From Campylobacteraceae bacterium (GTDB lineage Bacteria > Campylobacterota > Campylobacteria > Campylobacterales > Arcobacteraceae): a stretch of 64,000 bases of DNA. The stretch spans positions 62,001 through 126,000 of the forward strand of contig JABSOM010000005.1 of NCBI GenBank assembly GCA_013215945.1, read 5' to 3'. How positions within the stretch are numbered: position 1 is the first letter of the stretch; the number at the start of each line of letters is the position of its first letter. The position numbers and the translations under genes are program-made. Shown here piece after piece: positions 39,668 to 44,728 of the stretch. Below the pieces are notes generated by a model. That model saw nothing but the letters and a program-made list of their open reading frames with translations, was not told the origin of the DNA and ran no database searches.

Positions 39668-40339
39668 ATGTATCGTATTGAAAGTTTTTTTAGCGATAAA
39701 AATGATGGCAATATAGCTTACCATGTGGGCGATATTGTAAAGAATGTTAATGAAAATAGAAATGAGCTCTCTTTAAAACACAGTTTTAATGTAAATAATA
39801 TAATGTATATGAATCAAGTACATGGAGATAAAATCCAAATAGTACATAATGGCTCTTCTAGACACAGTCTTGATTGTGATGCTTTAATAACACAGGAAAA
39901 AGGTCTGTATTTGATGGTTATGGTTGCTGATTGTATTCCTATACTTATTAAAGATTCAAAAAAAGGTGTTGTAGCAGCTGTTCATGCGGGGAGGAAATCA
40001 AGTTTTTTAAAAATTGTTGAAAAGGTAGTATTGAGAATGAAAAAAGAGTTCTCTTCTAAGGCGTGTGATATTGAAGTAGAATTTGGGCCTTCTATACAAG
40101 TTTGTTGTTATGAAGTTGATGAAGAAATGCAAGATTTTGTAAAAAATAACTTTGGAGCGGAATTTTGTAAAGGTAAAAATATAAATTTACAAGAAATAAA
40201 TAAAAAAATGCTAAATGATTTGGGTGTAAATAAAATCATTCTTTCAAATCATTGCACAAAATGTGGAGAAAAAAAATATTTCTCATATAGAAACAATTCA
40301 AAATGTGGTCGTTTTGCTGGTTTTATAGGTATAAAATAA
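39668..40339 (+). CDS. pgeF: Laccase-domain protein PgeF (peptidoglycan editing factor)
   Basis: The 223-residue protein belongs to the YfiH/PgeF family. Zinc-site and core motifs are MNQVHGD (near residue 53), ADCIPILI (near 88), VHAGRKSS (near 103) and CCYEVDE (near 140), then a cysteine pair CTKCGEKKYFSYR near the C terminus. In E. coli the family keeps peptidoglycan free of mistaken L-serine-type muropeptides. The HAGR motif has Arg where most have Trp. It is monocistronic. Confidence 0.85.
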   Translation: MYRIESFFSDKNDGNIAYHVGDIVKNVNENRNELSLKHSFNVNNIMYMNQVHGDKIQIVHNGSSRHSLDCDALITQEKGLYLMVMVADCIPILIKDSKKGVVAAVHAGRKSSFLKIVEKVVLRMKKEFSSKACDIEVEFGPSIQVCCYEVDEEMQDFVKNNFGAEFCKGKNINLQEINKKMLNDLGVNKIILSNHCTKCGEKKYFSYRNNSKCGRFAGFIGIK

Positions 40340-40362
40340 TAATTAATTTTATTTATTACATA

Positions 40363-40406
40363 ATTATGTAAATATTATGTAGATATCATGTAATTATCAT
40401 GTATCT
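40363..40406 (+). repeat. Four tandem 11-bp repeats ATYATGTANNT before malic enzyme
   Basis: The octamer ATYATGTA occurs at 40363, 40374, 40385 and 40396, exactly 11 bases apart, each unit ending in T (ATYATGTANNT). The first copy is also half of a 16-bp perfect palindrome at 40356-40371 (TTACATAATTATGTAA). 11 bp is close to one DNA turn, so all sites face the same side. The array lies 24 bases after pgeF and about 46 bases before a TATAAT. Confidence 0.75.
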
Positions 40407-40458: not shown

Positions 40459-40525
40459 TAAGTTACATTTTGTTACAATTCTTTCAAATAACATATAGGG
40501 TTATAAAAATATCAAGGATTATTAA

Positions 40526-41785
40526 ATGAGCAAAACAGTAACAAAAGAAGAAGCATTAGATTATCACCAGTATCCAAAACCTGGTAAATTAGCGATATCA
40601 ACAACAACAAACCTAAGTACACAAAGAGATCTTTCTTTAGCATATACTCCTGGTGTTGCTCATCCTTGTTTAGCTATTCAAGATGATCCACAAAATGCAT
40701 ATAAATATACAGCGAAAAGAAATCTTGTTGCTGTTATCTCAAATGGTACTGCTGTTTTAGGTCTTGGTGACATTGGTGCACTTGCTTCAAAACCAGTTAT
40801 GGAAGGGAAATCAGTTTTATTTAAAGCTTTTGCTGCTGTTGATTCTTTTGATATTGAAGTGGATGAAAAAGATGTTGATGAGTTTTGTAAAGTTGTAAAA
40901 GCAATCGCTCCTACTTTTGGTGGAATCAATTTAGAAGATATTTCTGCACCTTCTTGTTTTGAAATTGAGAGAAGATTAGTAGAAGATTTAGATATCCCTG
41001 TAATGCATGATGATCAACACGGAACGGCTATTATTACAACTGCTGGTTTAATTAATGCCTGTGAATTATTAGGTAAAAAATTAGAGCATTTAAAAGTAGT
41101 AGTAATTGGAGCTGGTGCGGCTGCAATATCTTGTTCACGAATGTATAAACATGTTGGAGTTACAAATATTATTATGTGTGATTCTAAAGGTGTTATACAT
41201 AAAGGAAGAACAGATTTAAATCAATACAAAGAAGAATTTGCAATTGATGAAGAAATGAGTTTTGATGATGCATTTAGAGGAGCTGATGTTGTTTTAGGTT
41301 TATCAAAACCAGGTTCATTTGGAATTGAGCACATTGCTTTATTATCTGATAAACCTATTGTTTTTGCTTTATCTAATCCTACTCCTGAAGTATTTCCAGT
41401 TGATATTTTAAAAGTTAGACCAGATGCTATTGTTGGTACTGGACGAAGTGATTTTAATAATCAAGTAAATAACGTAATTGGATTTCCTTTTATTTTTAGA
41501 GGTGCATTGGATGTTCAAGCAAGAAAAATTAATATGGAAATGAAAACAGCTGCTGCTCATGCTATTGCAAATTTAGCTAAAGAAGAAGTTCCAAAAGAAG
41601 TACAAGATATTTTTGGAGGAAATGTAAAATTTTCAACTGATTATATTATTCCAAAAGCTTTTGATAAACGTTTAATTGTTGAAGTTTCTTCAGCTGTTGC
41701 ACAAGCTGCTTTTGAATCAGGAGTTGCAAGAGTTACTGAATTTAATCTTGAAGCTTACAGAAAAGAACTTGCTACTCTAATCTAA
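40526..41785 (+). CDS. Malic enzyme (NAD(P)-dependent, short form)
   Basis: The 419-residue enzyme decarboxylates malate to pyruvate. Family motifs are LSLAYTPGVAHP, GDIGALASKPVMEGKSVLFK (catalytic Lys), EDISAPSCFEIERRL, MHDDQHGTAI (metal ligands) and the dinucleotide fold VVVIGAGAAAISCSR. The length is that of the bacterial malic-enzyme core, without the phosphotransacetylase domain of E. coli MaeB. NAD or NADP use cannot be told. AAGGA precedes the ATG. It is monocistronic, with an unusual repeat array upstream and a terminator downstream. Confidence 0.93.
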   Translation: MSKTVTKEEALDYHQYPKPGKLAISTTTNLSTQRDLSLAYTPGVAHPCLAIQDDPQNAYKYTAKRNLVAVISNGTAVLGLGDIGALASKPVMEGKSVLFKAFAAVDSFDIEVDEKDVDEFCKVVKAIAPTFGGINLEDISAPSCFEIERRLVEDLDIPVMHDDQHGTAIITTAGLINACELLGKKLEHLKVVVIGAGAAAISCSRMYKHVGVTNIIMCDSKGVIHKGRTDLNQYKEEFAIDEEMSFDDAFRGADVVLGLSKPGSFGIEHIALLSDKPIVFALSNPTPEVFPVDILKVRPDAIVGTGRSDFNNQVNNVIGFPFIFRGALDVQARKINMEMKTAAAHAIANLAKEEVPKEVQDIFGGNVKFSTDYIIPKAFDKRLIVEVSSAVAQAAFESGVARVTEFNLEAYRKELATLI

Positions 41786-43227: not shown

Positions 43228-43887
43228 ATGTTTAAAATACTAATTCTTGAAGACGATTTACTTTTTGCTCAAAGTTTAGAAGATTGTTTAGAAGAAGAAG
43301 GCTATGAAATTCATCTGGCAAAAGATTCAGAAACTATGATGGAATTCTCTTATACGAACAATTATGATGTATATTTACTTGATATAAATGTTCCAGGAAT
43401 TAGTGGTTTGGATTTACTTAAAGATTTAAGAGAAGCAGGAGATAATACTCCTAGTATTTTTCTAAGCTCCTACAAAGATCAAGAAACACTAAAAAATGCT
43501 TTTATAAATGGAGCAGATGATTTTTTACGTAAACCTATTGATTTAGAGGAACTGTTTTTAAGAATTTCTTCTTTGTTAAAACGATCTGGAAAACGCATAG
43601 AATCTCTTGTTTTAAAAAATGGTCTTTCTTATGATGCCCAAAAAAGCAGATTGTTCTTAAATACACAAGACTTAAATGTGCCCATTAAAGTTATGCACTT
43701 ATTTGAATTATGTTTGGAAAATAGAAAGTCTATAATTACTAAAGAAATGATAGTCTCTAAACTGTGGACGCTTAATGAAGATTATAGTGAAGGCTCAATT
43801 AGGGTATATGTAAATAATTTGAAAAAGATATTGGGAAAAGAAAGTATTATTAATATCAAAGGCATAGGATATAAAATTGAATTCTAA
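43228..43887 (+). CDS. OmpR-family response regulator
   Basis: The 219-residue regulator has a receiver domain (acidic pair EDD near 8-10, phospho-acceptor Asp in YLLDINVPG near residue 53, Lys in FLRKPIDLEE near 102) and a winged-helix DNA-binding domain ending IKGIGYKIEF. It resembles the regulator at 10636 over its length (for example ADDFLRKPIDLEELFLRI against CDDFLRKPFELKELLLRI), so they are paralogues. It directly follows trmL with no gap and overlaps the kinase by 11 bases. Confidence 0.92.
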   Translation: MFKILILEDDLLFAQSLEDCLEEEGYEIHLAKDSETMMEFSYTNNYDVYLLDINVPGISGLDLLKDLREAGDNTPSIFLSSYKDQETLKNAFINGADDFLRKPIDLEELFLRISSLLKRSGKRIESLVLKNGLSYDAQKSRLFLNTQDLNVPIKVMHLFELCLENRKSIITKEMIVSKLWTLNEDYSEGSIRVYVNNLKKILGKESIINIKGIGYKIEF

Positions 43888-44728
43888 AAAAAAGATATTT
43901 TATATTTCTCAAAGTATTGTACTTGTATTTATTTTATTAATATCTCTTAGTTTTAACTATTTTTTGTATGATACTTTTGGTTTTTTTTTAGAAAATATGA
44001 TTTTGGTTACTTTATTTTCTTTATGTTTTGCTTTATTTTTGTATTTTATTTTATCAAAATCTATTTTGGATCCTTTGTTTAAAAGTGATGATAATTTGCA
44101 AAAAGCCCTTAATGAAACACTGCATGAATTAAATATTCCTGTTTCAACCATTGAATTAAATGTAAAAATGCTTGAAAAAAACATACATGATGAAAAAAAC
44201 ATTAAACGATTAAACAGAATAAAGATGGCTTCAAAAAACTTATTAAAACTCTATGAAGATATGGAATACTCAATTAAAAAAGAAATTGATAAAATTGAAA
44301 ACAAAGAGTTTTCTCTAAAAGAATGTATTAATGAGTCTTTATTAAAGTTTGATGATATTAAAAAAGATATTAATATTAAAATAAATATAGAAGAAGTAGT
44401 TCTTAATGCTGACTACAATGGCTTTTGCACACTTTTAGATAATTTATTATCAAATGCTATAAAATACAATAACGCTGAAAAACGAATAGAAATAAATTAT
44501 AAGAATGATATTTTAAGCATTTTTAATACAGGTGTGTCTATTGATGCACAAAATTTAAAAAATGTATTCGATATGTATTATCAAGAAGACAGATCCTTAG
44601 ATGGTTTTGGTTTAGGTCTGAACATTGTCAAAGAATTTTGTGACAATAATAAAATTTTTATTTCTATTAAACCAGAAGAAAAAGGAACTATAGTTTACTT
44701 GAATTTAAAAAATCTTCGTAAAACCTAA
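43877..44728 (+). CDS. Sensor histidine kinase with degenerate G1 box
   Basis: The 283-residue kinase starts at TTG 43877. Two close helices (about residues 12-30 and 39-60) leave almost no periplasmic sensor, so signals must come from the membrane or another protein. The His box is TLHELNIPVSTIELN (His near 83), the N box is NLLSNAIKYN, and the G2 box is DGFGLGLNIVKEF. The G1 box reads NTGVSI instead of DTGxGI, so the Asp that contacts adenine is Asn. Its pair is the regulator just upstream. The end overlaps the convergent glycosyltransferase by 41 bases. Confidence 0.85.
   Translation: MNSKKKIFYISQSIVLVFILLISLSFNYFLYDTFGFFLENMILVTLFSLCFALFLYFILSKSILDPLFKSDDNLQKALNETLHELNIPVSTIELNVKMLEKNIHDEKNIKRLNRIKMASKNLLKLYEDMEYSIKKEIDKIENKEFSLKECINESLLKFDDIKKDINIKINIEEVVLNADYNGFCTLLDNLLSNAIKYNNAEKRIEINYKNDILSIFNTGVSIDAQNLKNVFDMYYQEDRSLDGFGLGLNIVKEFCDNNKIFISIKPEEKGTIVYLNLKNLRKT

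Follow-up and report, generated by a model that had tools for sequence, protein, structure and literature searches.

Direct repeats spaced by one helical turn are the mark of OmpR/PhoB-type response regulators. The sites of Escherichia coli ArcA consist of two to five direct repeats whose spacing is predominantly 11 bp, and a site of four repeats gives a footprint of 44 bp (PMC3798270). MaeKR of Lactobacillus casei is a two-component system that acts on tandem direct repeats in the malic enzyme promoter (PMC5457438). In Campylobacteria, energy and carbon metabolism are regulated by CemR/HP1021/Cj1608 (PMC6052347, PMC11334517), for which the HP1021/CemR box consensus is TGTTWCW (PMC6052347).

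The window, that is, the whole stretch of 64,000 nucleotides that was analysed, contains an array of this kind upstream of a malic enzyme gene (mae). The product of mae has an NADP-dependent malic enzyme as its best NCBIfam match, under the model cut-off. All four 11-mers fit ATYATGTANNT at exact 11-bp steps, as an earlier note on this DNA had reported, with ATTATGTA in the first two units and ATCATGTA in the last two (Table 1), and the array thus consists of head-to-tail repeats within the 10–11 bp spacing of OmpR/PhoB-type binding sites. It lies 120–163 bp upstream of the mae ATG, and 67 bp separate its end from a conserved -10 element. At up to three mismatches, the 44-bp pattern has a single match in the window and none in 100 dinucleotide shuffles of it. 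The only two-copy matches without mismatch in the source genome are three overlapping ones within the mae array. Two-copy matches with up to two mismatches were no commoner than those of the reversed control (36 vs 34) and carry little meaning alone; weight was therefore given only to arrays of at least three units or to units in a conserved position.

Table 1. Features of the mae locus and of a second candidate regulator (window positions unless a contig is named; conservation of G refers to 22 aligned arrays)
Feature	Position	Strand	Remarks
pgeF, upstream neighbour	39668..40339	+	NCBIfam TIGR00726 above cut-off
16-bp palindrome	40356..40371	.	TTACATAATTATGTAA; overlaps unit 1
Array unit 1	40363..40373	+	ATTATGTAAAT; conserved G (core -31) 91%
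Array unit 2	40374..40384	+	ATTATGTAGAT; conserved G 95%
Array unit 3	40385..40395	+	ATCATGTAATT; conserved G 95%
Array unit 4	40396..40406	+	ATCATGTATCT; conserved G 86%
Core promoter element	40460..40479	+	AAGTTACATTTTGTTACAAT; TACAAT (40474-40479) taken as -10 hexamer
TGTTACA, overlaps -10	40471..40477	+	Perfect match to HP1021/Cj1509 (CemR) box TGTTWCW; putative site by sequence
Malic enzyme gene (mae), presumed target	40526..41785	+	Pfam malic + Malic_M
OmpR/PhoB-type response regulator, candidate array binder	43228..43887	+	Pfam Response_reg + Trans_reg_C
Sensor histidine kinase, partner of response regulator	43877..44728	+	Pfam HATPase_c; HisKA below cut-off
DctSR-like response regulator, source genome	C18:16051-16734		Paired kinase with large periplasmic sensor region

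Malic enzyme was searched in 41 genomes picked regardless of the array, and 18 loci of the family were scored (g1–g20 are the kinship labels of the genome search). An 11-bp-phased TYATGTMA array was found upstream of mae in 12 of these 18 unselected family genomes with a close malic enzyme, so that the conservation proposed in the earlier note is borne out, and none of 200 dinucleotide shuffles of the same region matched for any of the 12. Nine genera carry the array before mae (g1, g3, g6, g9, g10, g13, g15, g17, and g19), mostly with four units, and g3 and g6 have a reversed pair; in the unselected family set the array is absent from g4, g5, g7, g16, and g20. Further species with the same mae array were found by pattern search, but these were selected for the array and are not independent tests. 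The malic enzyme search of genome contigs returned mainly Bacteroidota enzymes.

Almost every mae upstream region in the family contains a second block, AAGTTWCATTTNGTTACAAT, with TACAAT as its likely -10. The last array core lies 73–75 bp from the conserved GTTACAAT -10 element in g1, g10, g15, and most of g19 (75 bp in the window, from the core A of unit 4 at 40399). Elsewhere the distance is 86–87 bp (g13), 53 bp (g17), and 64 or 96 bp (two g19 species), shifts of roughly one turn (about 11 bp) or two (about 22 bp), and g9 alone, with 28 bp, agrees less closely with the helical register. Modulo 11, 22 of the 24 promoters fall within 73–75 bp, a count that overstates the independent cases because many of the promoters come from one genus (g19). 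The spacing is thus locked to the helical turn, in keeping with the suggestion that the sites occupy one face of the helix, and the fixed face with its whole-turn jumps is the constraint that would be expected from a protein meeting RNA polymerase. Information content of the aligned arrays peaks every 11 bp with the linker near background, and the G of ATGTA is 86–95% conserved across units (22 aligned arrays). Mean pairwise identity is 68% in the array, 72% in the promoter block, and 49% in the DNA between them. Since GTTAC is also present in other promoters of this family, the TGTTACA of mae may be either promoter or box.

An AT-rich tandem repeat born by chance or slippage might be imagined here, since the genome is AT-rich and Tandem Repeats Finder detects the period (period 11, 3.5 copies, 40366-40403). 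However, the linkers differ between units while the cores are conserved over at least nine genera, and the distance to the promoter is fixed. This origin is extremely improbable, and the conservation of the array already contradicts it. It is also highly unlikely that the array is a transcribed feature, either an RNA element or part of the pgeF 3' end, rather than a protein-binding site. It does begin 24 bp past the pgeF stop, and within a few bases of the stop in some species, but it has no match to a known RNA family in Rfam up to E=1 and folds no better than shuffles (z -0.77), which gives no support to a riboswitch or other RNA leader element. Moreover, its repeats are direct, not inverted, and its word also stands before unrelated genes in both orientations. 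The palindrome that the earlier note saw joined to the first copy exists, but it is not conserved: of 24 arrays, only 5 have an inverted half-site close to unit 1, its spacing varies, and no inverted repeat of the kind found in palindromic (dimer) operators is conserved among the 24. Its overlap with unit 1 is probably incidental.

The word recurs at other promoters of the family. In 104 family genomes the three-copy pattern gave 75 matches, compared with 15 for the reversed pattern. Intergenic three-copy matches mostly precede organic-acid genes: ackA-pta, TRAP dctP, acetate permease, DctA, DASS, lactate permease, and the aceE/lipoate divergent region. Four-copy matches, some of them weak, add nifJ, AlsT, SstT, and TctC; gene names without a cited family search come from protein sequences judged by eye. 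Arrays before further carbon-metabolism genes, as anticipated, thus recur at dctP, DASS, pta, actP, and nifJ. The array at lactate permease was found in G003 only; the 96%-identical copy in G002 lies too near a contig end, and paralogues of this permease elsewhere have no array.

For dctP, DASS, and pta, follow-up loci were chosen by protein, not by array. Two reversed units lie 8 bp before the -10 of dctP in 11 of the 14 family genomes searched, the source genome included; one of the three promoters without the pair is masked by N. DASS symporters have four to six units in g3, g6, g13, and g19, where a promoter region of their own exists, and those lying within about 40 bp after mog have none. 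Two or three units stand near -140 from the ATG of pta in g3, g6, and g10 (p up to 0.01); the units are weaker in g9 (p 0.13) and g15 (p 0.07), and pta of g1 has none. The source genome itself has the full array only at mae, two units at dctP (p about 0.05), and an imperfect pair at C5:212577, 99 bp upstream of oadG (oxaloacetate decarboxylase gamma chain). Among the DASS loci, one reading frame in a member of the source genus contains several stops (G003:C101:3667-4863), and two others contain single stops. The units are in forward orientation at mae and in reverse at dctP and at mae of g3, g6, and g11; since orientation and promoter distance vary among targets, one activation mode does not explain all of them.

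In a scan of 397 genomes of the class, almost all three-copy matches fell within the family. Outside it, 5 of the roughly 350 genomes searched have a three-copy match with at most one mismatch, and because two of these five precede a gspG-like gene, no extension of the regulon is claimed. Judged by these matches, the putative organic-acid regulon is largely confined to the family. As a separate observation, two genomes outside the family share a conserved array of four ATGTAA-like units upstream of a gspG-like secretion gene.

We read the array as a regulator site because it is conserved across many genera and recurs before other organic-acid genes; most likely a regulator of C4-acid and pyruvate metabolism docks on it. 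As judged from genome comparison, it is a real, conserved cis-regulatory element with a familiar architecture, a new word, and a clear target set. We consider it likely that the 44-bp array is an OmpR/PhoB-type binding strip that switches mae, with the same regulator acting at dctP, pta, and DASS. Each 11-bp unit (TYATGTMANNN) would take one winged-helix monomer, and four phosphorylated monomers (two dimers), presumably bound cooperatively, would lie head to tail on one helix face upstream of the mae promoter, the array cores being at about -86 to -119 if the start is 7 bp after TACAAT. They would switch mae, more probably as an activator contacting RNA polymerase from upstream. At dctP this regulator would occupy a two-copy site in the -35 position, at pta a pair of copies near -140 from the ATG, and at DASS symporters four to six copies. 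It would thereby link malic enzyme and the pyruvate/acetate node to the import of C4-dicarboxylates and further organic acids.

The source genome has 46 OmpR-type regulator genes, and two readings of which of them binds the array are refinements of the OmpR/PhoB-type explanation, not opposites of it. One plausible binder, with the balance somewhat against it, is the pair of response regulator and kinase encoded 1.4 kb downstream of mae. mae, purU, trmL, and the two genes of the pair lie on one strand, so the pair may control its own operon through the array, and in 59 of the 75 genomes having both it follows mae on the same strand at no more than 20 kb. However, where mae has been lost the pair is still found beside pgeF-purU-trmL, and linkage alone therefore proves little. 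Its recognition-helix stretch reads YSEGSIRVYIN with almost no variation among the genomes that bear the array; changed forms occur in g4 (SNGAIRVYIH), g7 (SEGSLRVYVT), and g20 (SEGSIRNYIL), which have no mae array, and g5 and g8 have neither the mae-linked regulator nor the array. Against this, g16 and g2 keep the helix yet have no mae array or no mae, g4 keeps a weak dctP pair despite its altered helix, and the comparison is confounded by overall divergence. Nor does an array precede the regulator gene itself: none was found before it in 8 genomes with the pair near mae, or around the pair in 18 genomes with mae absent or unlinked.

Alternatively, the binder may be a DctSR-like pair beside dctPQM that would sense C4-dicarboxylates and act on mae, DASS, and DctA as well, although we regard this as rather unlikely. 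The pair adjoins dctPQM in g1, g9, g10, g11, and g12, the dctP promoter carries the two-unit site, the target genes are compatible with C4-dicarboxylate sensing, and other local pairs in these genomes seem to have repeat words of their own beside the transporter they flank. But in g3, g6, and g13 the dctP site is present with no DctSR-like pair adjacent, and no unit lies upstream of dctS or dctR.

Two local regulators were rejected as binders. In promoters of the TRAP 'KWKLATTWG' operons the shared pair is another one, TATCAT at 11 bp, adjoining the -10, and the source-genome copy of the operon has no ATGTA units; the symporter promoter beside the DUF4212/SSS regulator has a TTGCTAY pair. Five TRAP operons with an adjacent kinase-regulator pair, one of them in the source genome (C8:147.8 kb), share in their promoters a TATCATNNYATTATCAT pair immediately upstream of GTTACAAT, probably the site of the local regulator. 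At C7:70.5-74 kb of the source genome (L175 and L275), a kinase-regulator pair lies beside DUF4212 and SSS symporter genes, whose promoter has TTGCTAY-N4-TTGCTAY, 11 bp apart, facing the pair. TGTCATA-type repeats (C2:16168-16206 in the source genome), conserved between two genera, adjoin another kinase-regulator operon and seem to be the word of yet another regulator.

Two-component systems are abundant in these bacteria, and to our knowledge few of their binding words are known. With the conserved word, the promoter register, and the set of target operons, one regulon becomes directly testable, and a single signal would then connect C4-acid uptake with malic enzyme and acetate metabolism. 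More tentatively, the OmpR/PhoB-type binder might be a global organic-acid regulator of the family, non-orthologous to ArcA and following the same logic, in which C4-dicarboxylate/pyruvate status would set promoters by repeat number, with two repeats for dctP and pta, four for malic enzyme, and four to six for DASS.

The claim that no regulator with this site is known in Campylobacterota stands uncontradicted in those open-access papers that were searched. CemR/HP1021/Cj1608 shares with the locus a perfect TGTTWCW box overlapping the mae -10, but the word and spacing of that box are not those of the array. MaeKR likewise has tandem direct repeats in a malic enzyme promoter, but MaeR belongs to the citrate/DcuR family, unrelated to the OmpR type, and its three repeats read TTATT(A/T)AA. 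The array resembles the pho box of PhoB in its 11-bp direct repeats and in some units reading ATGTCA, which we take to be close to the pho box TGTCA, and the dctP site stands in for the -35 region, as a class II pho box does. However, among the arrays whose neighbours were read, a set that does not include the pst promoter, none precedes a phosphate gene; the PhoB-like regulator of the source genome adjoins phoU and pstB. From ArcA the locus differs in its word, TYATGTMA at mae, and in an array set upstream at a fixed distance from the -10, unlike typical ArcA repression sites; the candidate regulator downstream of mae scores 66.8 bits against an ArcA model (cut-off 334). In its architecture the array nevertheless matches OmpR/PhoB-type response regulators, and above all E. 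coli ArcA, with 11-bp centre-to-centre direct repeats, four-repeat sites of about 44 bp, a repeat number that varies between promoters, and the presumed control of carbon oxidation genes.
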